Shown here piece by piece: positions 11,447-24,503 of a stretch of 25,613 nucleotides of DNA; the first letter of the stretch is position 1; every line of letters starts with the position of its first letter. The stretch lies in IMG/VR virus record IMGVR_UViG_3300035034_002500, positions 1 to 25,613 of that record; one strand, given 5' to 3'. Source of the DNA: a virus. The notes under the pieces are model-generated. The model saw only the letters and a list, made by a program, of their open reading frames with translations, did no database searches and had not been told where the DNA came from. The position numbers and the translations under genes are program-made.

Positions 11447-11467
11447 AAGTATCAATTCAATCCCCTT
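11447..11467. repeat. Left copy of a 21-bp direct repeat flanking the leftward block
   Basis: It begins AAGTATCAATTC and ends CCCCTT. The copy at 15822-15842 matches at 19 of 21 positions in the same orientation. The two repeats enclose the entire minus-strand block. This copy overlaps the stop codon of the leftward 126-aa gene. Confidence 0.65.
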
Positions 11468-11837
11468 TTTTTATAGTCTTGAGTTTATCTACTCGATACT
11501 TATCTCTAATCTTTAACTGTAAAAAGATTGCATCGGCCTTTGATGGAGGGGTTTCAAAATTCCAAGCCCCCGCGTTGTCACAAAAGCCGTAATGCTTCAT
11601 AAGTGGCATTAGTCTAGTATCTAGTTTGTTTTTTTTTGACCACTCAGTATAGGTGTCTCTGGGGGTTTTTGATTTAGATCGCAAATAAAACAACCTAAGC
11701 TTCTCGTATAAATCATCTATTTTTTTATGAAATGAAAATACATAAGCCAGGTCGTTCATAATGAAAAGATCATTAGTTGTAATACTTATTTGACCCACAT
11801 TTCCTGCGGTTCCAGAATTTCTTTTTATCTTTGACAT
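11457..11837 (-). CDS. Hypothetical protein (126 aa), leftward
   Basis: This 126-aa protein is encoded on the opposite strand to the lysis genes. It is basic, with helical segments (VFSFHKKIDDLYEKLRLFYLR) and a central part TYTEWSKKNKLDTRLMPLMKHYGFCDNAGAWN. It ends KLKTIKKGD. It has no membrane segment, and its family is not recognised. It is separated from the IbrB-like gene by 152 nt that holds two hairpins, so it probably has its own signals. A control protein or moron product is possible but unsupported. Its 3' end overlaps the left 21-bp direct repeat. Confidence 0.55.
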   Translation of the reverse strand: MSKIKRNSGTAGNVGQISITTNDLFIMNDLAYVFSFHKKIDDLYEKLRLFYLRSKSKTPRDTYTEWSKKNKLDTRLMPLMKHYGFCDNAGAWNFETPPSKADAIFLQLKIRDKYRVDKLKTIKKGD

Positions 11838-11989: not shown

Positions 11990-12502
11990 CTAATTATTGT
12001 TTCTATCCCATGATTGTGAAAACTTTTTATTTTTAAACAATTCTGCTAACCCAGATATCTGTTTTAACCTTAATAATTCGTCTGCGTCCATTCCTATGTT
12101 TTTAAGAATCCAAGCATCAGACATTCCTGCTTGTGTTAATTCAGAAACAATACCTGTCATTAATTCAATTGAATGAGATCCACGAGCTCTGTTATGTCTA
12201 ATTGTTGAAGCCATTCTATTACTTTCGTCTTTTTCGATAACAACAACAGGTAACTTTCCTTTTTCTCTTTTGTAAATATCTCTATGTTTTAACATTACAG
12301 TATACCTATGATAACCGTCTACTATCTCATATTTATCAATTTCTGTTAAATAATAACAGACAATTGGCATAGTATAACCATCTTCTTTAATAGATTGATA
12401 CAACAGCTTCATTTCAGGCGGTGCAACACTATTTGGGTTGTAGGTATTTGCTTGTATTTTATCTATAGATATTGCTTTTACCTTGTAAACTGGACTTATC
12501 AT
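11990..12502 (-). CDS. IbrB-like ParB/sulfiredoxin-fold protein
   Basis: This 170-aa protein is the last gene of the leftward operon. It has the ParB-like nuclease/sulfiredoxin fold: residues 5-20 (VYKVKAISIDKIQANTYNPN) lead the domain, the active-site-like loop is VDGYHRYTVM with DGYHR at 62-66, and RHNRARGSH (102-110) is the signature of the IbrB group. IbrB pairs with IbrA in enteric prophages, where the two activate host immunoglobulin-binding genes. The biochemical activity is not firmly known to me. Its start overlaps the stop of the IbrA-like gene by 4 nt (ATGA), so the two are translationally coupled. A DNA-binding/nicking or ATP-binding role is inferred from the fold. Confidence 0.8.
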   Translation of the reverse strand: MISPVYKVKAISIDKIQANTYNPNSVAPPEMKLLYQSIKEDGYTMPIVCYYLTEIDKYEIVDGYHRYTVMLKHRDIYKREKGKLPVVVIEKDESNRMASTIRHNRARGSHSIELMTGIVSELTQAGMSDAWILKNIGMDADELLRLKQISGLAELFKNKKFSQSWDRNNN

Positions 12503-13779
12503 AATATTGATTTATATTTTGTGATTGCTGATTTCCTTCTTTGCATTTCATTTTTAGTTAATGAAAAACCCATATACTTGCATAAATGATCATTTTTCAT
12601 AATACAAATACACATTCTTTTAAATGTTGGTATTTCTTTAGCTTCTGAAATATTTACATCATCTAAATAATCCATTCTTACTGGTTTCTTTTCTGTTTTG
12701 TAATTTGAACTTTCTGAAATTTTAATCTTAATACCAGATTCTTTTAATTTTTCAATTACTTCATTAGATAAAACACCACCTTTTCTTTTCCAAAACTTTA
12801 TAGAGGTTTCTAATTTGCACAAGTAATTTTCTTTTGTGTCTTCAGGTAAGGTAGACAGCAGAAAGTGCATATAACTTTCCCAACTATGATTTGCAGGTAA
12901 TTTAATTGTTTGCCACCCCATTGCTGTAGTACCTCCATAAAGTCCTGTAAAATTAACACCATTAACTCTACCAATCATTTTTGCCCAATTGTGCGGATCT
13001 ATTATTTTGTATAATTTTAAACTTTCTTGAGCTGTAGAGATAAAAGGACTTGCAACTCTTTGTTGTTCTATTCCAACCCCTGCTTGATAATACAAATCAT
13101 ATAACTTATTATAACTCCACTCAAACTTAGCGTTTGCAGTCCATACGTCAGTGGTTAGCCAATCATAAATGGGGTAGGCATTATATACGTTTTCAGAAAT
13201 CGTTTTAGTCCATTTTATACCTTGGTAATTCTTGTAATTTTTTTCAGAATGAATAGCACGCCATCTGTGCAGGCTTTCCTGCGTTCTAATACCTACCAAA
13301 CAAGCTGTTTTATTTGCTTTGTTTTTCTTGTGATACCAAGTACTGAATTTAGTTTGAAACTCATAATCAGTCATTCCTTTTTTCCAAAAATCAAAACTAT
13401 GATTATCTTCTGTAATGGCGTTTTTAGGCATTTTTCTAACCCAAATATTCTCTTTAGATTTCTGCCAAGGAAACCAATATCTTTCTGTCATAGATGTACA
13501 GGTCGTTACTTTTATAGGTAGGCAAACTCTGTACACTTCAAAAATATCTGAATTACTTTCTAAAACATCATCTGTATAATCTGTAGTCATTTGGTATTGC
13601 GCTTCATAGTCTAAATGAAAAACACCTACTTTTTTAGTGATCTTATTTTTACGCATATAATCGACTACTAAATTTAACATAACGCCACTATCCTTTCCTC
13701 CTGAAAATGATATATAGATGTTGTCAAATTCTTCAAATAATAATTTTATCCTTTTATTTGCCATTTCATAAACATTCAT
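12499..13779 (-). CDS. IbrA-like PAPS-reductase-family protein (PP-loop, DUF3440)
   Basis: This 426-aa protein has an N-terminal PP-loop ATP pyrophosphatase motif, SGGKDS (26-31), as in PAPS reductases and DndC. The rest matches the IbrA/DUF3440 group: NAYPIYDWLTTDVW, YDLYYQAGVGIEQQRVASPF and GFSLTKNEMQRRKS near the C-terminus. The family is paired with IbrB in prophages. The PP-loop activates a substrate by adenylation, which suggests sulfur- or nucleotide-directed chemistry, but the real substrate is unknown. The gene overlaps both neighbours by 4 nt (SNF2-like stop, IbrB-like start), showing a single coupled operon. Assignment to IbrA is strong. A DndC role is less likely because DndD/E partners are absent here. 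Confidence 0.85.
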   Translation of the reverse strand: MNVYEMANKRIKLLFEEFDNIYISFSGGKDSGVMLNLVVDYMRKNKITKKVGVFHLDYEAQYQMTTDYTDDVLESNSDIFEVYRVCLPIKVTTCTSMTERYWFPWQKSKENIWVRKMPKNAITEDNHSFDFWKKGMTDYEFQTKFSTWYHKKNKANKTACLVGIRTQESLHRWRAIHSEKNYKNYQGIKWTKTISENVYNAYPIYDWLTTDVWTANAKFEWSYNKLYDLYYQAGVGIEQQRVASPFISTAQESLKLYKIIDPHNWAKMIGRVNGVNFTGLYGGTTAMGWQTIKLPANHSWESYMHFLLSTLPEDTKENYLCKLETSIKFWKRKGGVLSNEVIEKLKESGIKIKISESSNYKTEKKPVRMDYLDDVNISEAKEIPTFKRMCICIMKNDHLCKYMGFSLTKNEMQRRKSAITKYKSIL

Positions 13780-14984
13780 ATTGCCTCTTTTTTAAACTCT
13801 TGTAAGGTCATTTTTTTAAATTCTTGCAACAAGTCTTTTTTCTTATTTACATTGTCCCACATTAAAGATTCTAATCCACAATTTCCTTTAAAACGCCTAA
13901 CGATACAATCTTCTTTTTGTCCGGTTCTGTATATACGTTTTTGGATCTGATCTAGTAAACCATAATCCCAATGCTGTTCAAACAATACCATTTCATTATA
14001 TTTTTGAAGATTTAAACCGTGTGCGTGTTTCTGCCAGCTTAATATTCTTGCATCAGGAAACAAAGCCTTTAATTTATTTTGAGTAGCTATATATTTTGCT
14101 ACAACAAGCGTTTTTGGTTCTCTTTTTAAAACAGCTTTTAATAGTACTATTTTTTCAGCATTTAAAGAGTAATTATTTTGTAGCCTTTGGGTTAAACTTA
14201 AAAAGAAATTAGGTTTTGCCATTAGCCACTCATCAGACAAAACTTGATCTATAACTCTAGTATGCTCATTCATCTCTTCTTCTGAAAGATTAAAATTAAC
14301 CTCTATATTTTGAAGATTAACATCTAACATTAAGTTAGATCTAAAAATATAAGGTTCTATCAATTTATACAAATAATCTAAATTGTGATATTTAACAATC
14401 CATTCTTTAGTTCTGGATTTACTACCTTTTCGTATTGTAGTTATTTTATATTCGCAAAAATTGTTTTTAAATTGCGTTTCATTCATTTTTAAAATAGATG
14501 GTGATAAGAATTCCATTTGCGCCCATAAATCAAGTAAATTTCTACTTAATGGTGTACCGTTTAAAATGTATCTATACTTTACTAATGTTGCTAAAGTTAA
14601 AATTCTTCTAGTTCTTTTTGCATCGCTATTTTTTATTTTCAAACTTTCATCTACAATTAAAACAGCTTTTTTTGCTTTAGATAATTTTGCGTGAAGTTCT
14701 AAATATGTTTTATCAGAATTTTGAATACTTTCTATACCAATTAAATCAAAACTACAGTTAAAACCACCCCATTTATTTATTTCAAACAAAGTACTTTCTT
14801 TTTCGTTGGTGGTATTTATGCATTGATAAGGTGCAAAATATAAAACGTAGTCTGGTTTAATTTCGTTTACCAGCTCAACACAAGGTCTGGTTTTTCCTGT
14901 TCCTGCATCCATAAAGAAAGCGCCAACATACATTTGTTGAAGTTTCTTTTTACTCTCTATCTGTTGCTCTAATAAGGGTTTCAT
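13776..14984 (-). CDS. Compact SNF2-like helicase/ATPase
   Basis: The product is about 402 aa and is a superfamily-2 ATPase likely to move along or remodel DNA. Motif I is MDAGTGKT (about 25-32), motif II is VDESLKIKN (DEAD-like DES), motif III includes NGTPLSRN, and motif VI is QKRIYRTGQKED, the SNF2-type H/Y-R-x-GQ ending. There is no extra accessory domain. The ATG at 14984 (MKPLLEQQ) was chosen because it limits the overlap with the preceding gene to 35 nt. An upstream in-frame ATG at 15032 would add 16 hydrophobic residues and an 83-nt overlap. The stop overlaps the IbrA-like start (ATGA), placing it in the same operon. A role in loading or targeting the IbrA/B pair is inference. Confidence 0.8.
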   Translation of the reverse strand: MKPLLEQQIESKKKLQQMYVGAFFMDAGTGKTRPCVELVNEIKPDYVLYFAPYQCINTTNEKESTLFEINKWGGFNCSFDLIGIESIQNSDKTYLELHAKLSKAKKAVLIVDESLKIKNSDAKRTRRILTLATLVKYRYILNGTPLSRNLLDLWAQMEFLSPSILKMNETQFKNNFCEYKITTIRKGSKSRTKEWIVKYHNLDYLYKLIEPYIFRSNLMLDVNLQNIEVNFNLSEEEMNEHTRVIDQVLSDEWLMAKPNFFLSLTQRLQNNYSLNAEKIVLLKAVLKREPKTLVVAKYIATQNKLKALFPDARILSWQKHAHGLNLQKYNEMVLFEQHWDYGLLDQIQKRIYRTGQKEDCIVRRFKGNCGLESLMWDNVNKKKDLLQEFKKMTLQEFKKEAI

Positions 14985-15282
14985 CTTTTTTAATATTAGA
15001 AGCATCAAGCTTTTTAGGTGTATGATGCTCAATCGTTATATTGCCAATATTCTTACCTTCTTTTGTGAAAATTGTACTTTTTTTTGTTGAATACTGTAGG
15101 TTTTTCTTTTCTAGTATCCATTGTGAAATCCAATAAGCGTCACTTTTAGAAACATCAAAATCCTGGCCGTAAAATTGGGAAGCCGGTATAAGCGCTTCGC
15201 TGCCATCAAATGCTATTGCTTTATAGCATTTAGGTGAGATTGAAACAAACGACTCCAATCTCACTGAAATACACTTAGGCAT
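14950..15282 (-). CDS. Hypothetical operon protein (110 aa)
   Basis: This 110-aa protein is the second gene of the leftward operon. Its ATG overlaps the stop of the first gene by 1 nt (TAATG), and its 3' end overlaps the SNF2-like gene. It has a beta-rich start (KCISVRLESFVSISPKCYKAIAF), AYWISQWILEKKNLQYSTKK in the middle and a polar C-terminus (KKDETLIRATDRE). No known motif is visible. The stable coupling to the helicase suggests a partner or adaptor function. This is context only. Confidence 0.55.
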   Translation of the reverse strand: MPKCISVRLESFVSISPKCYKAIAFDGSEALIPASQFYGQDFDVSKSDAYWISQWILEKKNLQYSTKKSTIFTKEGKNIGNITIEHHTPKKLDASNIKKDETLIRATDRE

Positions 15283-15725
15283 TATACAGAGGTTGCATAA
15301 AGGAAACTTTTTAAGGTAACAGTTTCTTTGAGTTTTAATTCTTTGAAAATCTCAATTAAATTATCGGTATGCTGCTTTCTAAAAGATTTATTAAAGTTAA
15401 AATTAATATCATATTCTTCTTTAGATCTACAACATTCTGTTTTCATCTTTTCAGAAATTATAATATTTTCTTTCCATAATTTAACTGACTTATCAGTCGA
15501 TAAAATTTCGCCAGCAATGCGGCTTCCTCTATCAGAATCTGAGGGAGTTAATATCCATTTTTCTATAACTTGCTGGTTTTCTTTTAATAAAAGTTGATGT
15601 TGTACAGATCTATCTGTTTCGTATCCTTCAAAATAATAAGCATTACCTATATAGCAATCTACTTCGTTGATTAAAAATATTGAGTCTTCGCTATTAATTT
15701 CTAATTGTCTGTTTAAAGTTTCCAT
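15282..15725 (-). CDS. Hypothetical operon lead protein (147 aa), possible Toprim-like fragment
   Basis: This is the first gene of the leftward operon, about 35 nt behind a good promoter. The 147-aa protein is mixed alpha/beta. Features that stand out are SIFLINEVDCYIGNAYYFEG (about 15-34), WILTPSDSDRGSRIAGEILS (about 57-76) and a basic helical tail (FNKSFRKQHTDNLIEIFKEL). The LTPSDSDRGSRIA stretch resembles the D-x-D-x-x-G strand-loop of Toprim-type domains (as in FDxDxAG), and the N-terminal NEV-x-C could supply the preceding acid. This is an unproven idea, and I do not recognise the family. It carries no membrane segment. Confidence 0.55.
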   Translation of the reverse strand: METLNRQLEINSEDSIFLINEVDCYIGNAYYFEGYETDRSVQHQLLLKENQQVIEKWILTPSDSDRGSRIAGEILSTDKSVKLWKENIIISEKMKTECCRSKEEYDINFNFNKSFRKQHTDNLIEIFKELKLKETVTLKSFLYATSV

Positions 15726-15766: not shown

Positions 15767-15797
15767 CAAATATATACTTTTAATTAATATATTGCAA
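15767..15797 (-). promoter_or_regulatory. Bacteroidota-type promoter of the IbrA/B-SNF2 operon
   Basis: On the minus strand the -7 element is TATATTTG (15767-15774), an exact TAnnTTTG. A TTG -33 element lies at 15795-15797 with a 20-nt spacer. Transcription would start near 15760, about 35 nt ahead of the ATG at 15725. It is the best promoter match in the window and lets the block be expressed independently of the rightward phage genes. Confidence 0.65.
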
Positions 15798-15842: not shown

Positions 15843-15906
15843 CTCACCTTCTTTAAAACCATGTAACGTTCAAAACCTAGCTATTAAACCAACTTTGTGG
15901 CAAATA

Positions 15907-16809
15907 ATGATGATGAATTTTAAAACACTTCTTTATGAGCTTTCGCACGGTGAGTGGTTAATGTCCTTAGGGCATTTAAACCAGTTGCGTGATAGCATCC
16001 TTACAGGCGTTACTTCAAAGCATACTATGAGCCAGACCCAGCAGGAATATAAACGTCCAGAGGCTATTGACTGTATTTCATTTTACAATGAAGATGGGGC
16101 TCGCGTCAATGCGCGCAATGTTAATGAAATACCTGAAGGTAGCGTTGCGGTTGTACAAGTTGTAGGTGGAATGATGAAGTACGGTAGCTGGTATATGATA
16201 GGCGCTGATGAAGTTATAGCCCAGTTAGATTTTGCAAATAATTTGCGAAATGTTGCCGCTATACTAATGTACGTAGATGGTCCAGGTGGAGCAGTTGCCG
16301 CTATTGCTCCTTTTATTGAATTTGGCAAACGCAAACGCAAGCCTGTAGTGGCTGTTTGTGACAATGCACTTTCCTTGCATTTTTGGATGGTTCACGCGGT
16401 GGCAGATCACGTGATGGCAGACAATATTATTTCAGCAAGATTTGGAAGTACCGGCGTAATGAGCTCCTGGATGGATTTCAAAAAATACTGGGAATCTTTA
16501 GGCATAGAAGAACACGCTGTCTATGCAGATGAGTCTACTCATAAAAATGAAATTTGGCGCATTATGGATAATGATCCAGTTAAGGGCGAACGTATGTTAA
16601 TTGATATGCACCTATCCCCTACTGCAAAGATGTTTCAGGATTTTGTTAAAGATAAAATGCCGCAAATGAAACAAAGCGTAGAAGGTGTAATGACCGGTCG
16701 AACCTTTGGGGCTCAAGAAGCACTTGCTAATGGAATGATTCACAGCATAGGTAGCCTACAAAAAGGGATGGAAATGGCGCAAATGCTAGCAGAAGTAAAT
16801 AATAACTAG
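15907..16809 (+). CDS. S49-family prohead protease (SppA/ClpP-like)
   Basis: This protein of about 300 aa is a signal-peptide-peptidase-like (S49) serine protease that would mature the phage head by cutting scaffold from the capsid precursor. A crotonase-type fold is visible: AAILMYVDGPGGAVAAIAPF gives the oxyanion-type G-G loop, the presumed nucleophile is Ser156 in NALSLHFWMV, and ISARFGSTGVMSSW and GIEEHAVYADE follow. VMTGRTFGAQEALANGMIHSIG (C-terminal) is typical of the family. ATG 15907 was taken as start because MMMN follows at once. A TTG at 15895 would add four residues. A weak promoter-like CAACTTTG lies at 15890-15897. It directly precedes the capsid gene, as in many phages. Confidence 0.85.
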   Translation: MMMNFKTLLYELSHGEWLMSLGHLNQLRDSILTGVTSKHTMSQTQQEYKRPEAIDCISFYNEDGARVNARNVNEIPEGSVAVVQVVGGMMKYGSWYMIGADEVIAQLDFANNLRNVAAILMYVDGPGGAVAAIAPFIEFGKRKRKPVVAVCDNALSLHFWMVHAVADHVMADNIISARFGSTGVMSSWMDFKKYWESLGIEEHAVYADESTHKNEIWRIMDNDPVKGERMLIDMHLSPTAKMFQDFVKDKMPQMKQSVEGVMTGRTFGAQEALANGMIHSIGSLQKGMEMAQMLAEVNNN

Positions 16810-16845
16810 AGTATAAATGAATATTAATTATAAATCCTAAGTAAA

Positions 16846-19032
16846 ATGAAAAGATTGAAAAAAACAATCGCACAGGTAAAAGAGCTCTTAGGGATTGATT
16901 CAATCCCATTTGAAAACGGAGCCTCAAACTTTGCGCCAGATGAAAAAGCCAAGCTTGAAAAAGCGATGGGGGCACAGCTCACTCAAAAAGTGATTGATGC
17001 CATTGACAAAGAAGCTAATACTATTTTAAAAGAGCAAGGCGAGAATACCGTGCTTACAGAAATTGAGGCAGAGCTTGCAGAGGCTTTAAAAGACACTAAC
17101 ATTTCCGCAGATGAAGCCGTGCAAATAGCTACAGATGCAAAAAAAGCAGACCCCACAGCACCAGACGCAGAGACTATTTCTCTAAGCGAGAAAGTGCAAA
17201 AGCTATCTCAGCAATTAATTGAAGAGAAACGCAAGAGCGATGCCCTTGTAGCAAAACTGATTGAAGATCCGGAAGGCGATGCTCCAGTGGCTAAAGGCAT
17301 TGTTAAAGAAACAAATGTTATGAAACACAGCAAGACACACCTTATGGCTACTAATAATGCCTATGATGCTTTTGATGGACGTACATGGAACCAGCGCGCA
17401 GCAGGTATCACAAAATCCTTTACCGACTGGGCAGGAGATAACGGCGTTAGTGTAGGCAAGTTAAATCAGGATATGGATCACTACTTTAGAGAAAATCCTG
17501 AGTCTATCAGCTCTTACATCTGGGATATGTTTGGACTTCCTGCAAATTGGAAAAAAATACCTAACATAACGCACGAGCGTGCCACAGCGACTATTACGAC
17601 TAAGGAGATCACTCAGGGGCGCAAGTTGCCTTGGTTGCCTAAAAACGAGCAAGAAATTGAGCCAGAGATTGGCCGTATTTTTCCAGTACAAATTGACGCG
17701 CAGTATGTGGGTCAAATGTTACAGGACCTTGAGGAATCTTGGTTAAGTAAATTTGTAGGCGGAGGCTCACAGCCTTATAAAACTAGTTTTGTTGCTTACT
17801 TAGCAGGAGAGCTTAACAAGCAAGCACGTATTGAAGATAGAATTAGTTCTGTTTTAGGAATACACGTTAAAACACCCAATGGTGCTACCTCTCCAGGTTT
17901 AATGTTAAGCCGTCAGGATGGTTTATTATTCCAAGCGTGGAAAGCTATTTATGTAGATAAAAAGGTGAAGACAAAAAACATTGGCACACCTACATCTATC
18001 AACATATTAGACCACGTGCGTGATATTATTGAAAAGAATTTACCTCGCACAGTGAGAGATACGCGTATGCCTTTAGAGCTGTATATGTCTGCTCATTGGG
18101 CAAGAGCATATAGTGATGCTTACAGACGCAAGCACGGTAACGAAACAGATTTTGATGGCAACACAATGTCTATTCAAAACTTTAGCAATATCAAGATAGT
18201 TGTGCTAGATGACCTTGCAGAAACAGACTTTATGTTTATCACAGATCCTAAAAATGTTTCTATTTTAGAAAACATTCCTGCGGAAAAGTCTATGTACCGT
18301 TTTGAGTACCTATTGCGTATGATTTACATTTTAGGCGACTACAAGCTAGGTATTATGTTTGATCACTTAGGCCGTGAAATTGCAGACAATGACCCTCGTG
18401 CTTTTTCATTGCAAATGTTATGGACTAACGGTGTACCTCCTTTTCCTGCAGAGCGTTTTGTACCAGTATTTGACGATACCTCAGGTAAAGTGAAAATCAA
18501 GTACCCTAACCTTCAAGTAGTATCTACGTGGAATACTGATATTACAGAAATCACAGGCACTAAGGCTGGGATGGTTGTAAAAATCAAAGGAGATAGCACT
18601 TTAGCCGCCGCTCGCAATGTAAAGCGTAACGCTAATTTATTGCTTACAGCTACAGACTTCCCGCTTAACACAGGTGGTACACTTACACTATTTGTGCAAA
18701 CAGATGGAAAGTTAAAAGAGTTGAGCCGTACCTCACAGCCAGACCTTATAGTGCAGGAAGATGTAACCTTCAACACTAATATAATTGATGCAGGACAAGG
18801 AAGCGACCAGATATTTAACGGTACCACAGTTACTACTCTAGCCGAAATTATAAACGGTAACGAAGGCCAAGAGTTGAAGTTGACACAAACGTCAACCACA
18901 GCGCTTACCATTAACAGTGTGGCAGGAAACTTACAAGTAGCTAGTGAAGCTGTACTTGATGCTGTAAATGATACAATATCATTTGTAAAAGTGGACGGTG
19001 TATGGATTGAAACATCTAGAACCATAGCCTAA
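16846..19032 (+). CDS. Major capsid protein with N-terminal scaffold and C-terminal beta extension
   Basis: This 728-aa protein appears to be the capsid precursor. Residues about 1-150 are charged and helical, with low-complexity Glu/Lys/Ala segments (IEAELAEALKD, LSQQLIEEKRKSDALVAKL), as expected of an internal scaffold or delta domain. The core (about 165-545) contains capsid-like segments such as RVFPVQ-like IFPVQIDAQYVGQMLQDLEE, LPRTVRDTRMPLELYMSAHW and YKLGIMFDHLGREIADNDPR. From about 550 the sequence turns Thr/Gly-rich and beta (LPLNTGGTLTLF-like, LTINSVAGNLQVAS, WIETSRTIA), like a decoration domain. It follows the S49 protease by 36 nt, which should remove the scaffold part. Capsid identity rests on order and composition rather than a named domain hit. 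Confidence 0.75.
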   Translation: MKRLKKTIAQVKELLGIDSIPFENGASNFAPDEKAKLEKAMGAQLTQKVIDAIDKEANTILKEQGENTVLTEIEAELAEALKDTNISADEAVQIATDAKKADPTAPDAETISLSEKVQKLSQQLIEEKRKSDALVAKLIEDPEGDAPVAKGIVKETNVMKHSKTHLMATNNAYDAFDGRTWNQRAAGITKSFTDWAGDNGVSVGKLNQDMDHYFRENPESISSYIWDMFGLPANWKKIPNITHERATATITTKEITQGRKLPWLPKNEQEIEPEIGRIFPVQIDAQYVGQMLQDLEESWLSKFVGGGSQPYKTSFVAYLAGELNKQARIEDRISSVLGIHVKTPNGATSPGLMLSRQDGLLFQAWKAIYVDKKVKTKNIGTPTSINILDHVRDIIEKNLPRTVRDTRMPLELYMSAHWARAYSDAYRRKHGNETDFDGNTMSIQNFSNIKIVVLDDLAETDFMFITDPKNVSILENIPAEKSMYRFEYLLRMIYILGDYKLGIMFDHLGREIADNDPRAFSLQMLWTNGVPPFPAERFVPVFDDTSGKVKIKYPNLQVVSTWNTDITEITGTKAGMVVKIKGDSTLAAARNVKRNANLLLTATDFPLNTGGTLTLFVQTDGKLKELSRTSQPDLIVQEDVTFNTNIIDAGQGSDQIFNGTTVTTLAEIINGNEGQELKLTQTSTTALTINSVAGNLQVASEAVLDAVNDTISFVKVDGVWIETSRTIA

Positions 19033-19043
19033 TTAATAATCTA

Positions 19044-19069
19044 AGTCCCGTTAGGCAACTAACGGGACT
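19044..19069 (+). terminator. Perfect 10-bp hairpin after the capsid gene
   Basis: AGTCCCGTTA (19044-19053) and TAACGGGACT (19060-19069) form a GC-rich stem with a 6-nt loop, 11 nt after the capsid stop. The following sequence (ATTTAAAAAC) is only mildly T-rich, so it may be an attenuator or mRNA-stabilising hairpin that sets a high capsid mRNA level rather than a full terminator. Confidence 0.6.
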
Positions 19070-19088
19070 ATTTAAAAACTAAAAATTT

Positions 19089-19913
19089 ATGTTACGTTCA
19101 GTATATAAAAATAGAAGTGATTTTAGCCCAGGAGCGGCAACGCCAAAAGCTCCTAACGTTACTATCATTTTAACAGACGATTTAGTAAGCACTCCAGATA
19201 GAAACGCTGGTGGTGTCCTTATGGAAGGGAATTTTGTATTTAAACCGGGTACGGGTCCTTTACAATGCTACATGACGGCTTCAAAACAAGCACCCTCTTT
19301 TGAAGGTGAAGGCGAAGAAGATTCAATAAGTGTAAAGCACAAGTTTGATGGGATGCACCCTGGTGATGCGCTTGAAATTAATGAGCTAGTGCAAGGTTTA
19401 ATGGGTCAAAATGTAATTATTATTTATGGTAGTTGCTCAAACACTATTAAAAAAGTGTATGGTACGCCCTGCGCGCCACTACAGTTAAAGCCTAGCTTTG
19501 TTGCTAATAATGATATGACAGGTCACACACTTGTTTTTGAAGCATTTCAAAAAACAAAGTATCTACCAGGTCATTATTTAGGCGAGTTACCTACGGGTAA
19601 TCCTACGGCTGTAGTAGGTGCTGCTGTTGAACTTTCTGTAGCGGATGGTTTCCAATACAAACTAGCGCCATTTGCAAGCACAGCAAGTATCACAGCCGAA
19701 AATACAGACTTACCAGCAGGTACCTTTGTAACGCTTATAGGTGGTGGTGGTGCAAACCCAGCTACTTTAGCCACAGGCGCAGGTAGTGGGGACAATGCAG
19801 ATGTATTGCTTAGAGGCGGTGCAAACTGGATAGCCCTAGACGGTGCAACCATTGATCTAGAAGTATTTGATGACGGTACTACTACGCACTTAATAGAGCG
19901 TAAAAGAAGCTAG
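19089..19913 (+). CDS. Phage structural protein, tail-tube or head-completion-like (274 aa)
   Basis: This 274-aa protein lies after the capsid hairpin. The N-terminal about 165 residues (NVTIILTDDLVSTPDRNAGG, GPLQCYMTASKQAP, VIIIYGSCSNTIKKVYG, MTGHTLVFEAFQKTKYLPGHYLG) look like a beta-sandwich structural domain. The C-terminal about 95 residues (YKLAPFASTASITAENTDLP, GTFVTLIGGGGANPATLATG, ANWIALDGATIDLEVFDDG, ending in LIERKRS) resemble the extension of the capsid protein in rhythm. Both end in a Trp/acidic plus R-S pattern. No named family is recognised. A virion structural role is well supported by context. Tube or stopper identity is open. Confidence 0.65.
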   Translation: MLRSVYKNRSDFSPGAATPKAPNVTIILTDDLVSTPDRNAGGVLMEGNFVFKPGTGPLQCYMTASKQAPSFEGEGEEDSISVKHKFDGMHPGDALEINELVQGLMGQNVIIIYGSCSNTIKKVYGTPCAPLQLKPSFVANNDMTGHTLVFEAFQKTKYLPGHYLGELPTGNPTAVVGAAVELSVADGFQYKLAPFASTASITAENTDLPAGTFVTLIGGGGANPATLATGAGSGDNADVLLRGGANWIALDGATIDLEVFDDGTTTHLIERKRS

Positions 19914-19943
19914 TAATAGCAGTTTTTTGAGTTAGTTGTTAGG

Positions 19944-19976
19944 AAAGCAATGCCTGTTATGGGCGTTGCTTTTTTT
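19944..19976 (+). terminator. Rho-independent terminator
   Basis: AAAGCAATGCCT (19944-19955) pairs with GGGCGTTGCTTT (19961-19972), with two G-T pairs and a 5-nt loop, followed by a run of T to 19976. It is the strongest terminator in the window and closes the capsid operon 31 nt after the stop of the structural gene. Confidence 0.85.
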
Positions 19977-20006
19977 CATGTAACAAATAAAGGTGTATAT
20001 CATAAT

Positions 20007-20014
20007 TACATTTG
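20007..20014 (+). promoter_or_regulatory. Candidate -7 promoter element after the capsid terminator
   Basis: TACATTTG matches TAnnTTTG exactly. Transcription would start near 20020, about 28 nt before ATG 20049. It follows the terminator, consistent with a separate packaging-gene operon. No clear -33 element is seen. Confidence 0.45.
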
Positions 20015-20048
20015 AAGTTATAAGCAATAACTCTATAAAATTTTTAGT

Positions 20049-21047
20049 ATGAAATCAACTGTTTTAAAAGTACTGAGAGATACATCTCTTACTACTCCTA
20101 ATAAATACAATGCTTTGATGGAGCTGTTAAGCAACACTACGGAGGCAAATCCTGTTTCCTTACGCTCCTACAATCAAGCAGGTGCAAATGAGCAAACCAT
20201 CGCACTAATCACTTATGACCTTCAAAAATTTTACGGCATTAAAGATGCAGAGCTTCGTCCTGGGTATATTGATCCTTCTAAAAACCTGAAAGCGGTTAAA
20301 GCAGCATCAACGAATGCGCAAATTAGTGACGATGCTATTTTAGGATTTGACCTAAAAAACGCAAATTACCACAAGGACTTAAAACCTTTTGCCCTCGCCC
20401 TTGCCCTAGCTAAAAATATTGAATTGCCAGATGCTAATTCAAAAACCCTTATTGATTTTATACAAGAGCAACAAAACAGCCTTCAACCAGCTCCTGATTT
20501 TGTAAATCCATTTACAGATGCTTCTATTGAGGCAAAGCAAGGATTAAAGCTTAGAGATGAGTTTCCTTTTTTAAGCGACCCTAACGCTCCTATCAAGTTA
20601 AAAGGACTTGTTACAGACAAGCTCACGGCTTTTTATGCTGTGCTAGATGCGCGCAAAGAGTTGTTTGGGCAACTAGATGAGCAAGGAAACCTTATTGAGG
20701 ACGCACCGCTTAACGAAGAGAGAGCTTTAGATCTTTGCAAAAGTGCTGTTGAAAATTTTGAGTTAAATCAGTTGATTTATGACGAGCTCAACCACTTTAA
20801 AGAACACGGTATCATTTTAGGCAAGCACCCTGTTTTTGCAGCCGAAGTGCTACAGCGTGAGGTTGACGAAATGAGCGACAATGATGCCCACAAGGCAATT
20901 AGAACTATTAACACCTACATTTCAAAAGAAAAAAAGAAACTAGCCAGCGCTAAGACAGATGAATCTACCATAAAAATCCAGCAAGTAATTGAGGGACACG
21001 TTACAAAAATTGACTTACTAAAAATCAAGCTAGGTCTTGAAAAATAA
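20049..21047 (+). CDS. Hypothetical phage protein (332 aa)
   Basis: This 332-aa protein is mostly helical and acidic. Recognisable stretches are FYGIKDAELRPGYIDPSKNL, DFVNPFTDASIEAKQGLKLR, EFPFLSDPNAPIKLKGLVTD and a C-terminal coiled-coil-like part (IRTINTYISKEKKKLASAKT). It has no membrane segment and no clear catalytic motif. It starts the packaging operon after a terminator and promoter-like site, and overlaps the next gene by 11 nt. Head completion, packaging accessory or internal virion roles are possible from context. I do not recognise the family. Confidence 0.6.
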   Translation: MKSTVLKVLRDTSLTTPNKYNALMELLSNTTEANPVSLRSYNQAGANEQTIALITYDLQKFYGIKDAELRPGYIDPSKNLKAVKAASTNAQISDDAILGFDLKNANYHKDLKPFALALALAKNIELPDANSKTLIDFIQEQQNSLQPAPDFVNPFTDASIEAKQGLKLRDEFPFLSDPNAPIKLKGLVTDKLTAFYAVLDARKELFGQLDEQGNLIEDAPLNEERALDLCKSAVENFELNQLIYDELNHFKEHGIILGKHPVFAAEVLQREVDEMSDNDAHKAIRTINTYISKEKKKLASAKTDESTIKIQQVIEGHVTKIDLLKIKLGLEK

Positions 21048-21657
21048 ATTTTTTGATACTAAAGAGGTAGATAAAAATGTATCTACAGGCAAGGCTTCAA
21101 CAATGTATCGCTCACAATATTTATTAGCGCATTTTGAAAAGCTTTCAAATATTGAAAAAGAATTAACAAGGTTACCTTCAGAGGAGGAGTTTTTTTTTCT
21201 TCAAACTGAAAAACAATTTAACGCCTTTACCTTTATTCCTGCGGTAGCAAAAGTACACAGCATTCGTCATTTATACGCCTGTACATATAGTTTGAGCCGT
21301 AGAACCATTGAAGCCCTCATTGAACTGCACGACAAAGGGTTGATTGAAGCAATCACGTTAAGTATTAGTGATAGTTTAATTAAAAGAAACCCAAAAACGG
21401 TAGACCTTTTAGTCGCTCAAATATCTAGCCGTGCAAATATTAAGGTGTTATTTACTTGGAGCCACGCAAAAGTTGCGCTTTTAGAAACAAATGAAGGCTA
21501 TTATGTTATTGAAGGAAGTGGTAACTGGAGTGAAAACGCTCATTATGAGCAGTATATTTTTGCAAACAGCAAATCACTTTTTGATTTTAGAAAAGAATTA
21601 TTCACCGCCGTGAAAGTTCGCTATATAGCAGACACAAACGGCCTTAAACAGTTGTAG
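21037..21657 (+). CDS. PLD-like (HKD) nuclease-fold protein
   Basis: This 206-aa protein has features of the phospholipase D/nuclease superfamily. His143-Ala-Lys145 (SHAKVALLE) fits HxK, and GSGNWSENAHYEQY (160-173) matches the GSxN region with a downstream acid. The canonical HxKx4D Asp is replaced by Glu or displaced, so catalysis is uncertain. Members with one HKD motif act as dimers. The frame begins at TTG 21037 (11-nt overlap with the previous gene); ATG 21103 is the alternative and would lose 22 residues. The position just upstream of the terminase genes suggests a role in DNA packaging or processing, an inference. Confidence 0.65.
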   Translation: MKNKFFDTKEVDKNVSTGKASTMYRSQYLLAHFEKLSNIEKELTRLPSEEEFFFLQTEKQFNAFTFIPAVAKVHSIRHLYACTYSLSRRTIEALIELHDKGLIEAITLSISDSLIKRNPKTVDLLVAQISSRANIKVLFTWSHAKVALLETNEGYYVIEGSGNWSENAHYEQYIFANSKSLFDFRKELFTAVKVRYIADTNGLKQL

Positions 21658-21658
21658 T

Positions 21659-21811
21659 ATGAAAGTAGATGCAAAAAAAGTAATGGATTCAAAAACAGTT
21701 CAAAATCCATTTTTACCACAAAACATGGTGAAATCAGTAAAAAAATTCCCTGCGGAAACCCCTGTTAGCGCAAAAAAGAAATCTAAACGATCTCCTGAAA
21801 AGAAAAAGTAG
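21659..21811 (+). CDS. Small basic protein (50 aa)
   Basis: A 50-aa ORF begins 1 nt after the stop of the PLD-like gene (ATG 21659) and ends at TAG 21809-21811. The product starts MKVDAKKVMDSKTVQNPFLP and has a very basic tail (SAKKKSKRSPEKKK). Tight spacing and codon usage like the neighbours support expression. A basic tail suits DNA binding or packaging, but the function is unknown. It is too short for standard ORF cut-offs. Confidence 0.5.
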   Translation: MKVDAKKVMDSKTVQNPFLPQNMVKSVKKFPAETPVSAKKKSKRSPEKKK

Positions 21812-21869
21812 TAAGTCTCTTAAAAAAACATCCAGTGCTTTATTATAAGCAAATTCACAACGCAAAACT

Positions 21870-22190
21870 ATGAGTTTAACGGAAGAAGAATATGAAGCTA
21901 TTGAAGATCTTGCTGGCTGCAATTATGGACCCAACAGGATAGCTAAGTATTTAGGGGTAGATATAGCTTCATTTATGAGCGCTTGGTATAATTCTGAAAG
22001 TGAGGTACGTAACCGGTATGATAAAGGGCAATTGCAAAGTGAGTTTTTAATAGCTCGCAAACGTAAAGAAAACGCAGAAAAAGGAAACCTCACCGCAGAC
22101 CAGCAACATACTAAGGAGCTAGAGCGTAGACGTAATGAAGATATAAAAATGCGCCTTCTATACGGAGGCGCACCTATTATTCCTATATAA
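21870..22190 (+). CDS. Putative terminase small subunit (106 aa, HTH)
   Basis: This 106-aa protein has an N-terminal helix-turn-helix (LTEEEYEAIEDLAGCNYGPNRIAKYLGVDIASFMSAWY, residues about 3-40; recognition helix near IAKYLGV), then a charged helical tail (RKRKENAEKGNLTADQQHTK). The DNA-binding plus oligomerising helix layout, and the position three genes ahead of the large terminase, fit a small terminase that recognises phage DNA. Its stop overlaps the next ATG (TAATG). The 209-aa gene that follows could alternatively hold this role. Confidence 0.6.
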   Translation: MSLTEEEYEAIEDLAGCNYGPNRIAKYLGVDIASFMSAWYNSESEVRNRYDKGQLQSEFLIARKRKENAEKGNLTADQQHTKELERRRNEDIKMRLLYGGAPIIPI

Positions 22191-22819
22191 TGAATGTACA
22201 GAAAGCAGTTGAAAAACTAGACATAGATGCTATTATAGAATTTAGGGACAGTGGCACAATCACTAATGTCCCTGAAGAAGTAGTTTTGTACCTTCAAGAA
22301 ATGTCAAAGGTGCACGGGATGATTTTGAGAAACGATCAATATGGGGGTAGAGATGCTGTTATTAATCATTTAATGAAATTTGATGGATACAGCCAATACC
22401 TAGCCTCAAAAATTTATAACGAAACCACAGAGTATTTCTATACTGGCAGAGAAATTTCAAAAGAAGCTCACAAAAATAGATTAGCAGACCTGATGGAGCG
22501 AGGCATAAACACCGCCCTTGCCCTCGCAAAAGACAGTAGAGATATAGTGATGGCTATTGGAAAGATTCCAGAAGTAGCAAAATTACTAGATTTAGACAAA
22601 ACAGATGCAGAGCTTTTTCCGCAGTCTCTTTTATCTCGCCCTATAAAACTATACACATCTTCTGCGGAAGATTTAGGAATGCCCAAAATAGATCGTTATG
22701 CCCTAGGTGCTATCATTGACAGTTTACCAATGATTAGTGATGCGGCAAAAGTAATGTGTAAGCGAGACAGCCAATTATTACCCGTTAAATTTTTTAGAGA
22801 TGATAGACCTACAGAATGA
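22190..22819 (+). CDS. Putative packaging accessory or second small-terminase candidate (209 aa)
   Basis: This 209-aa protein is coupled to the HTH gene (TAATG) and overlaps the large terminase start by 20 nt, so all three are translated together. It is largely helical (IDAIIEFRDSGTITNVPEEV; YLASKIYNETTEYFYTGREI; MERGINTALALAKDSRDIVM). It has DNA-binding-like character only by position. The function is not recognised. The tight coupling makes a packaging partner the best inference. Confidence 0.55.
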   Translation: MNVQKAVEKLDIDAIIEFRDSGTITNVPEEVVLYLQEMSKVHGMILRNDQYGGRDAVINHLMKFDGYSQYLASKIYNETTEYFYTGREISKEAHKNRLADLMERGINTALALAKDSRDIVMAIGKIPEVAKLLDLDKTDAELFPQSLLSRPIKLYTSSAEDLGMPKIDRYALGAIIDSLPMISDAAKVMCKRDSQLLPVKFFRDDRPTE

Positions 22820-24503
22820 TGCCGTAGAGGGCAGGTATGCAAGTTGGGTAAAGCAAGGGATTGATTTTATTGCGCCTAAAAATTTGATGCTCGTAGCGGG
22901 ACGTGGTACTGCAAAAACTACAGACATATTAGCGGACAGGTCTATTGATATCAATTATGATATGCCCCGCTCTATGCTCGCCCTTGTGAGCGATACATAC
23001 GTCAATAGCTTAACAAACATTGTTCCTTCATTACTGGAAGGATGGCGAGAGCGCAAAGGATGGATAGAAGGCATCCATTATGTTACAGATGAACGCCCGC
23101 CCTCACACTTTGCCACCTGTTACAGGCCTGTTATTAATTATAAACATACGATATCCACCCACACAGGATGCCTTTTTAGATTGGGCAGTCTTGATCAAGC
23201 TTCCTCACTTGCGGGTGGTTCGTATCAACATATATTTGGCGATGAGTCAAAGTATTTAAATCCTAAAAAGTTAAAGACATTAATGCCTGCCCGTCGTGGT
23301 TTCCCTGAGGTAGCACATTCTATTTATTACAGGGGATTGACCTTTACAACAGATATGCCCAATGTGGTAGAAGGGGATTATGACTGGATACTCAATCACG
23401 AAAAAAATATGGATATTGAGCAAATAAAACTAGCCTTGCGCGCTGGTTCTGTGCTCAATGAAATACGCAAGGAGTTTTATACGGCTTGCGAAAAAGGAAA
23501 AGATCAAAATGCCATTTCAAAAATTCAAAAAAAGTACACTCGCTGGTATGAGCGTTGGTACAGGTCAAGGATAGACAGCACCTTTTTTTACATGGTAAGT
23601 AGTTTTGCAAACGCAGATATTTTGCAACCTGGTTACTACAAAGATGTTTTAGAGAGTGATGGTATTGAGGAATTTAAATCGTCCATCCTAACCTTAAAGC
23701 CCACGGTAAAACCTGGGGAGCGTTTTTATATCAACCTAGGCAAGCACCATTTTTATGATGATGGTGTGAACAATCAATATTATATTGACAACTTTGGACT
23801 TTCAGACAAAGTAAGGCATACAAGCTATACGCTCAAGTATGTAAACCCAAAAGAGGAGCTTGACGGCGGTATGGATTTTGGCGATATGATGAGCCTTGTC
23901 ATAGGTCAAGAAATGGGTAGTTATTATTATTGCCTTAAAAATCATTACACCTTAGCCCCTGAAAACCTAAAAGATTTAGCCAGGCAGTTTATAGATTTCT
24001 GGGAGCCACACCCTACAAAGGTGTTAAATTTGTTTTATGATCGTAGTGGAAACCAGTATCACAAAATACGCCGTGATATGGCTAGTGAATTCAAGGACCA
24101 TATAGAAAATTATGACGGCGCACACACAGGCTGGACAGTAAATTTAATGAGCGAAGGGCAGGAAACCATTTACCATCAGCAGGAATTTGATTTTGCTAAA
24201 AAGTTAATGGGCGGATATTATGATGCTTTACCACAGCTAAAAATTGACCAGTACCAGTGCAAAGAGTTAAAGGCTAGTTTAGAGCTAGCAAAGCAAATTA
24301 TGGCGCGCCACGCACAGACAGGTAGTGCCTATCTTAAAAAAGACAAGAGTAGCGAAAAGCTACACATAAGCAAGTTGCCTATGTTTTCTACAAATATGAG
24401 TGATGCGTTTAAATATTTGATGTACCGCCCAGATTGGGTGCGCTTATCTCTCAGAGAGGAAAAACAAGAATGGAGTAGCCCTGAGGTTATTAGTGGGGAT
24501 TAA
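22800..24503 (+). CDS. Terminase large subunit
   Basis: This 567-aa protein is the DNA-packaging motor. It has a Walker A AGRGTAKT (33-40), a Walker B with the acid pair FGDE (Asp148-Glu149), a likely coupling region after it, and a C-terminal nuclease domain with GGMDFGD (about 355-361) and later acids, such as NLFYDRSGNQY (Asp near 419). The length is typical of large terminases. It overlaps its small-subunit-like neighbour by 20 nt. It is followed by a hairpin rather than the portal gene usual in phages, and the downstream genes run leftward, so the portal must lie elsewhere. Confidence 0.9.
   Translation: MIDLQNDAVEGRYASWVKQGIDFIAPKNLMLVAGRGTAKTTDILADRSIDINYDMPRSMLALVSDTYVNSLTNIVPSLLEGWRERKGWIEGIHYVTDERPPSHFATCYRPVINYKHTISTHTGCLFRLGSLDQASSLAGGSYQHIFGDESKYLNPKKLKTLMPARRGFPEVAHSIYYRGLTFTTDMPNVVEGDYDWILNHEKNMDIEQIKLALRAGSVLNEIRKEFYTACEKGKDQNAISKIQKKYTRWYERWYRSRIDSTFFYMVSSFANADILQPGYYKDVLESDGIEEFKSSILTLKPTVKPGERFYINLGKHHFYDDGVNNQYYIDNFGLSDKVRHTSYTLKYVNPKEELDGGMDFGDMMSLVIGQEMGSYYYCLKNHYTLAPENLKDLARQFIDFWEPHPTKVLNLFYDRSGNQYHKIRRDMASEFKDHIENYDGAHTGWTVNLMSEGQETIYHQQEFDFAKKLMGGYYDALPQLKIDQYQCKELKASLELAKQIMARHAQTGSAYLKKDKSSEKLHISKLPMFSTNMSDAFKYLMYRPDWVRLSLREEKQEWSSPEVISGD

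Follow-up and report, generated by a model that had tools for sequence, protein, structure and literature searches.

IbrA and IbrB carry the historic annotation 'coactivator of prophage gene expression', and the sole published role of the pair that we know of is to activate the eib genes of prophages in E. coli. The window analyzed here, an IMG/VR virus record of 25,613 bases that is probably a fragment, contains an IbrA-IbrB pair in an operon that also encodes an SNF2-like ATPase and two further proteins. An earlier note on this DNA had proposed that the helicase may deliver the pair to DNA, giving a phage-borne system of DNA modification, inter-phage defence or host control. This locus raises the question of whether the genes form a unit and, if so, what that unit might do.

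Reading of the open reading frames confirmed a leftward five-gene row at 11990-15725, entirely on the minus strand. It consists of gene A (15282-15725; 147 aa), gene B (14950-15282; 110 aa), a compact SNF2 ATPase (13776-14984; 402 aa from ATG), a long-type IbrA (12499-13779; 426 aa) and IbrB (11990-12502; 170 aa). Genes A and B overlap by 1 nt, while the SNF2/IbrA and IbrA/IbrB overlaps are each 4 nt (ATGA). The ATG at 14984 is the best start of SNF2, as it aligns with relatives, which places the B/SNF2 overlap at 35 nt; the start at TTG 15032 given by the mechanical ORF call found no support among relatives. The earlier note had also assigned the operon its own promoter. A promoter-like sequence of Bacteroidota type, TTG-N20-TATATTTG, does lie at 15767-15797 on the minus strand, 42 nt upstream of gene A, but the match is at chance frequency, with the loose pattern expected about 6 times per window. 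Thus, an own promoter is plausible, and the sequence match is suggestive only.

The family assignments of the three larger proteins made in the earlier note held. The SNF2 protein matched SNF2-rel_dom (Pfam, 4e-13, over the cut-off), with Walker A, DES, LNGTP and RxxRxG intact and helicase motifs I, II, III, V and VI present. IbrA contains PAPS_reduct (E 9e-14) and DUF3440 (E 7e-91), and IbrB contains a ParB N-terminal-like domain (ParB_N, 5e-8) and a DGxHR motif; these Pfam matches were likewise over their cut-offs. The SGGKDS loop of IbrA is intact in the window, and this motif, D57xE59, GxRxxES..R and YPIYDW are kept in almost all IbrA forms. Conserved cysteines C86, C390 and C400 occur in long-type IbrA, while the short type lacks all three. 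A sulfur-relay cysteine common to all IbrA forms was thus ruled out, and thiolation would be possible in the long type but is unsupported as a general sulfur transfer.

In its predicted structure (pLDDT 86), IbrA resembles a PP-loop ATPase of the PAPS-reductase/ATP-sulfurylase/FAD-synthase class. The model aligned best with the PAPS domain of FAD synthase (Z 16.0, rmsd 2.7, 173 residues aligned) and the CysD subunit of ATP sulfurylase (Z 15.2, rmsd 2.6, 165 aligned), followed by APS/PAPS reductases (Z 13.5-15.0), and scored lower against the tRNA-modifying PP-loop enzymes TilS/MesJ (Z 12.2) and NcsA (Z 11.4). FAD synthase, CysD and the APS/PAPS reductases activate or handle phosphate or sulfate, so that a phosphate, for example in the DNA backbone or at a DNA end, would be the leading candidate substrate of IbrA.

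Relatives were gathered from viral contigs and bacterial genomes starting from SNF2, not from IbrA, and linkage was counted at loci whose sequence continued for 2.6 kb or more downstream of SNF2. IbrA and IbrB adjoined SNF2 on the same strand in 72/72 viral loci and 49/50 genome loci, counts that are not fully independent because a few loci duplicate one contig (e.g. L007/L088/L167). This linkage persists in several phyla, even where SNF2 identity falls to 26%, and neighbouring genes of the cassettes most often share a 4-nt overlap. Host records include Bacteroidota, Bacillota (Listeria, Lactobacillus, Gemella), Verrucomicrobiota (Opitutales), Nocardia and a Desulfobulbus bin, and the cassette was also found in phages of Streptococcus, Lactobacillus, Fusobacterium and Flavobacterium. 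The lone exception, a Succinivibrio locus (L142, 6556-8311), carries a B-like ORF and SNF2, the sole orphan motor among the loci, in a genome where DUF3440 was not found anywhere. When viral loci were anchored on IbrA instead, IbrB was present in 79/79, with SNF2 in 25/79 and without it in 54/79. These results show that the operon is real rather than a chance neighbourhood, and that SNF2, IbrA and IbrB are a fixed unit.

The earlier note had looked for all five families to co-occur, and had counted a lack of conservation of the helicase and the two other genes beside IbrA/IbrB elsewhere as evidence against its proposal. Both SNF2 and gene B (phrog_5809, 1e-35), which usually precedes SNF2, proved to be conserved there. 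Gene A, in contrast, occupies a variable slot, whose proteins fell into 25 sequence clusters among 59 loci, which rules it out as a conserved fifth component. Gene A of the window had no family match in Pfam or PHROG and has relatives at a few loci only (e.g. L092/L093). It carries a recurring 'SDSDR' motif (TPSDSDRGSRIAGE); SDxDR was present in 15/48 distinct A-slot proteins vs 19/1812 other ORFs, against 0.2 expected from shuffles, although independent cases are fewer than 15 because most of the motif bearers form one homologous cluster. The motif never occurred with B type 2, and a second A family, marked by NTKKM, accompanied B type 2 but was never seen beside B type 1. Another variable slot lies between B and SNF2, where some cassettes have one more gene, about 90-145 aa long (24 loci, 12 clusters; e.g. 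L007 5742-6035).

Gene B itself has two parts, an N-terminal domain that can be exchanged and a C-terminal tail that remains with SNF2. Its predicted structure, a small all-beta protein (pLDDT 90), had no significant match in the PDB or among viral models, and the best VIA-align hits (Z 4.1, ribosomal proteins, followed by SH3-like folds) were uninformative. Three loci of distant Bacillota (L147 5803-6993, L153 5202-6383, L157 5790-6986) instead have a protein of about 390 aa with an LTGTEKQxxWA motif in the place of B before SNF2, assigned to phrog_16123 in L147.

How the parts recombine was apparent from seven related loci whose SNF2 proteins share 86-96% identity in every pairing. The N-terminal domain of B is of two kinds, 63-96% identical within and 16-23% between kinds, while its 26-residue tail is 77-88% identical across both kinds in pairs without L014 or L017 and 46-58% in pairs with them. 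The IbrAB pair is also of two kinds, with IbrA 88-96% or 27-29% identical, and all four possible combinations of B N-terminal domain and IbrAB pair were seen. Similarly, in Flavobacterium-type loci that are 98.5-99.9% identical over their flanks, the IbrAB pair alone has been replaced, long IbrA-IbrB in one arrangement and IbrB-short IbrA in the other, with one breakpoint in the last SNF2 codons. Thus, gene A with the B N-terminal domain, and IbrA with IbrB, are swapped as two independent modules, and the constancy of SNF2 and the B tail between swapped sides marks these two as the hub.

IbrAB loci with and without SNF2 differ in their companions and in their genomic address. A family of about 137 aa with an NRKAWIGHAA motif, for which no Pfam or PHROG family was found (e.g. 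L188 6293-7606, L213 4507-5825 and ~50 other loci), was present in 53/62 SNF2-less vs 0/174 SNF2-bearing IbrA loci, so that it and SNF2 plus B are mutually exclusive in this sample. An EctC-like cupin (Pfam Ectoine_synth, E 2e-40) was found in 25/62 SNF2-less vs 1/174 SNF2-bearing loci. The SNF2-less type adjoins replicative helicases, primases, loaders and recombination genes, whereas the SNF2 type adjoins integrases and endolysins. These differing addresses suggest that IbrAB requires access to DNA, which it may gain either through the replication machinery or through a motor of its own.

The genomic setting of the cassette suggests that it is mobile. The window phage is collinear with the Duneviridae phages laban6-1, 6H and Ingeline, and its head and packaging genes at 15895-24503 are collinear with those of Duneviridae phages of Flavobacterium and Cellulophaga. 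At the junction where laban6-1 has 25 nt, the window has about 4.4 kb consisting of the inverted cassette and a leftward 126-aa ORF (11457-11837) downstream of IbrB, which had no relative in the compared loci. The window cassette is therefore a cargo-like insertion, inverted between the lysis and head modules (segment 11419-15894, not assigned to a strand). Elsewhere, it lies behind a 274-aa head gene (6H group), behind a homologue of window 22800-24503 (L063 and L017), or before the protease, but in forward orientation (L020). Phage 6H (L019 8367-9505) has a short-type IbrA split into two frames that is intact in the 99.8%-identical L009/L010; unless this is a sequencing error, the system is dispensable in 6H.

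That the system is phage-borne, as the earlier note had it, is true of the phage copies, but it is also fixed at one chromosomal site in Listeria, the tkt-pyrH interval (layouts L105, L106 and L111, with the same flanking ORFs in L108), where phage genes were not found beside it. In these four loci the order is SNF2-IbrA-IbrB with a B-like ORF in front. The L. monocytogenes genes lmo1309-lmo1311 (IbrB, IbrA, SNF2) represent the same three families as the phage cassette, although on the chromosome, and we found no link between them and phage cassettes in the open-access literature. They have been listed, with no function given, as Listeria sensu stricto genes (PMC5736727), and inter-protein co-variation of lmo1309/lmo1310 was reported alongside the proposal, and no more than a proposal, that this pair is a toxin-antitoxin system (PMC7020466). 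A 243-aa SAM-dependent-methyltransferase-like ORF directly follows IbrB in L106 (10026-10757), as well as in L105 and L111, and IbrA is also split in L105 (Listeria farberi). The dN/dS values, 0.02-0.06 for the Listeria copies and 0.08-0.10 for the Flavobacterium set, indicate that the cassette genes are under purifying selection and that function has been retained.

Among known systems, IbrAB and YbdN/YbdM of E. coli (DUF3440 and ParB) belong to the same two families as the window pair. The window cassette differs in joining SNF2, B and a variable A to the pair, while the pair of Escherichia phage PhiR5_2 has no adjacent SNF2. The Dnd/Ssp systems, like IbrA/IbrB, combine a PP-loop enzyme of the PAPS-reductase class with a ParB-superfamily protein, DndB, and phage PAPS-reductase-like proteins were likened to DndC earlier in M. 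abscessus prophages (PMC8092301). However, window IbrA scored 24.5 bits against an equivalog cut-off of 290.4 for DndC, DndD and DndE were not found among the operon proteins, and no PF00266 cysteine desulfurase (DndA) was found in the 25.6-kb record, a fragment whose host could supply that enzyme. This agrees with the earlier view that the cassette is not a standard Dnd system, and because Dnd genes are missing it is not a Dnd member. Dependence on a host Dnd system was rejected as well, since 11/12 cassette-bearing bacterial genomes were without a DndC over the cut-off.

The Dpd 7-deazaguanine system is similar in having a ParB-like ATPase, DpdB, and an SNF2 helicase, DpdE. Window SNF2 matched DpdE (E 4e-11) only over residues ~115-193 (~80 residues), a superfamily-level similarity, while IbrB had no DpdB match and the TGT-family DpdA was not found in the window, which may be a fragment. 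Among the phages compared, a TGT gene lies close to the cassette only in Fusobacterium phage phiFN37 (L006 6001-13057), where the cassette genes run IbrA-IbrB-B-SNF2 and three further genes come next, one ParB-like, one resembling queuine tRNA-ribosyltransferase (DpdA-like) and one for a queuosine precursor transporter; this region is possibly a combined DNA modification island. The window SNF2 core also resembles ZorD of Zorya type I, at 43 bits vs a cut-off of 1500, and ZorA, ZorB and ZorC were not found in the operon. PADLOC gave no system-level match for the cassette. By membership, it is not Dnd, Dpd or Zorya, and it may resemble the working of these systems only broadly, as a motor combined with chemistry on DNA. 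In the open-access papers searched, SNF2 and IbrAB were not found described as one system with an SNF2 hub, swappable modules and two types; one report mentions COG3969 solely where it maps the genes of an efflux pump, apparently through a misprint (PMC8272295).

Taken as sequence comparisons, these observations indicate that the cassette is most likely a motor-assisted, DNA-acting enzyme system, serving either modification or inter-phage defence, and the proposal that the helicase brings the IbrA/IbrB pair to DNA fits the evidence. Our favored model, held tentatively and at somewhat less than even confidence, is a mobile cassette whose enzyme system acts on DNA around a small dsDNA motor, with a covalent DNA change as the likeliest outcome. 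SNF2, judging from its family, would translocate on or remodel duplex DNA. The part formed by A and the B N-terminal domain would be attached to the motor by way of the B tail, and may determine the timing or the site of motor action. IbrA and IbrB would form one exchangeable catalytic pair, in which IbrA, as expected of its PP-loop class, would bind ATP and activate either phosphate or sulfate, with a phosphate of DNA as the probable target, while its ParB-like partner would bind and position DNA or a nucleotide. The resulting change would aid the carrier phage or lysogen by self-marking, anti-restriction or exclusion of other phages. A stronger form of the model, which we regard as rather doubtful, is that the cassette represents an undescribed class of DNA-modifying or DNA-surveying system, with an SNF2 hub, a recognition module (A and the B N-terminal domain) and a catalytic module (IbrA and IbrB), present in phages from many phyla, with a domesticated form in Listeria, and in which IbrA activates DNA phosphates for a new backbone or terminal modification. 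The DNA-acting reading must contend with the IbrAB pairs that lack SNF2 in most IbrA-anchored loci, the lack of a cysteine conserved across all IbrA forms, the published role of IbrAB in eib activation, the broken IbrA of 6H and the PADLOC result.

An alternative, on balance unlikely, is that the cassette serves inter-phage or anti-invader defence, with SNF2 scanning DNA and foreign or replicating DNA triggering IbrAB, through an ATP-consuming or nucleotide-modifying activity, to halt either the invader or the cell itself; the variable sensors would then be A and the B N-terminal domain. Conflict systems typically show such a variable first gene and such module swaps, the position of the SNF2 type beside integrase and lysis genes is the usual place of cargo, fixation in Listeria chromosomes argues that the cassette is useful to a bacterium, and SNF2 weakly and partially resembles ZorD and DpdE. 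However, neither a nuclease nor a known toxic effector domain was found in the cassette, it is flanked by phage genes and not by defence islands, and its carriers include phages reported to be lytic, such as FCL-2, for which no integrase or repressor was reported (PMC4541368). A defence-island context was in fact rejected, as the PADLOC matches of the neighbours were mostly methyltransferases.

The 'coactivator' label would instead have IbrAB, with SNF2, control phage or host transcription, as IbrAB does for the eib genes in E. coli. The ParB-like fold is compatible with such regulation, as is the repression of chromosomal ybdNM of E. coli by CitR, together with effects on citCDEF (PMC9068703), but a dedicated PP-loop enzyme with active-site residues kept in almost all forms exceeds the need of a regulator, and a target gene shared by the cassette neighbourhoods was not found; we consider this reading improbable. 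Least probable of all, and very unlikely, is a helper role in sulfur or nucleotide metabolism with SNF2 as a bystander phage helicase. PHROGs does class IbrA among auxiliary metabolic genes, and the EctC-like cupin accompanies the SNF2-less type. Nevertheless, the SNF2 subfamily occurred without the pair just once (L142) and mostly overlaps it by a few bases, and in Streptococcus phage Pika the replication module encodes another, separate DNA helicase.

IbrA/IbrB has been an almost untested old label, yet the pair is widespread in phages. A large subset of these pairs lies in a fixed unit with a DNA motor, SNF2 and B can be replaced by a small protein, and the parts are swapped combinatorially. 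This linkage and these swaps turn a vague annotation into a testable machine, and since copies exist in Listeria chromosomes and in cultured Streptococcus, Lactobacillus and Flavobacterium phages, its function can be tested by genetics and DNA chemistry.
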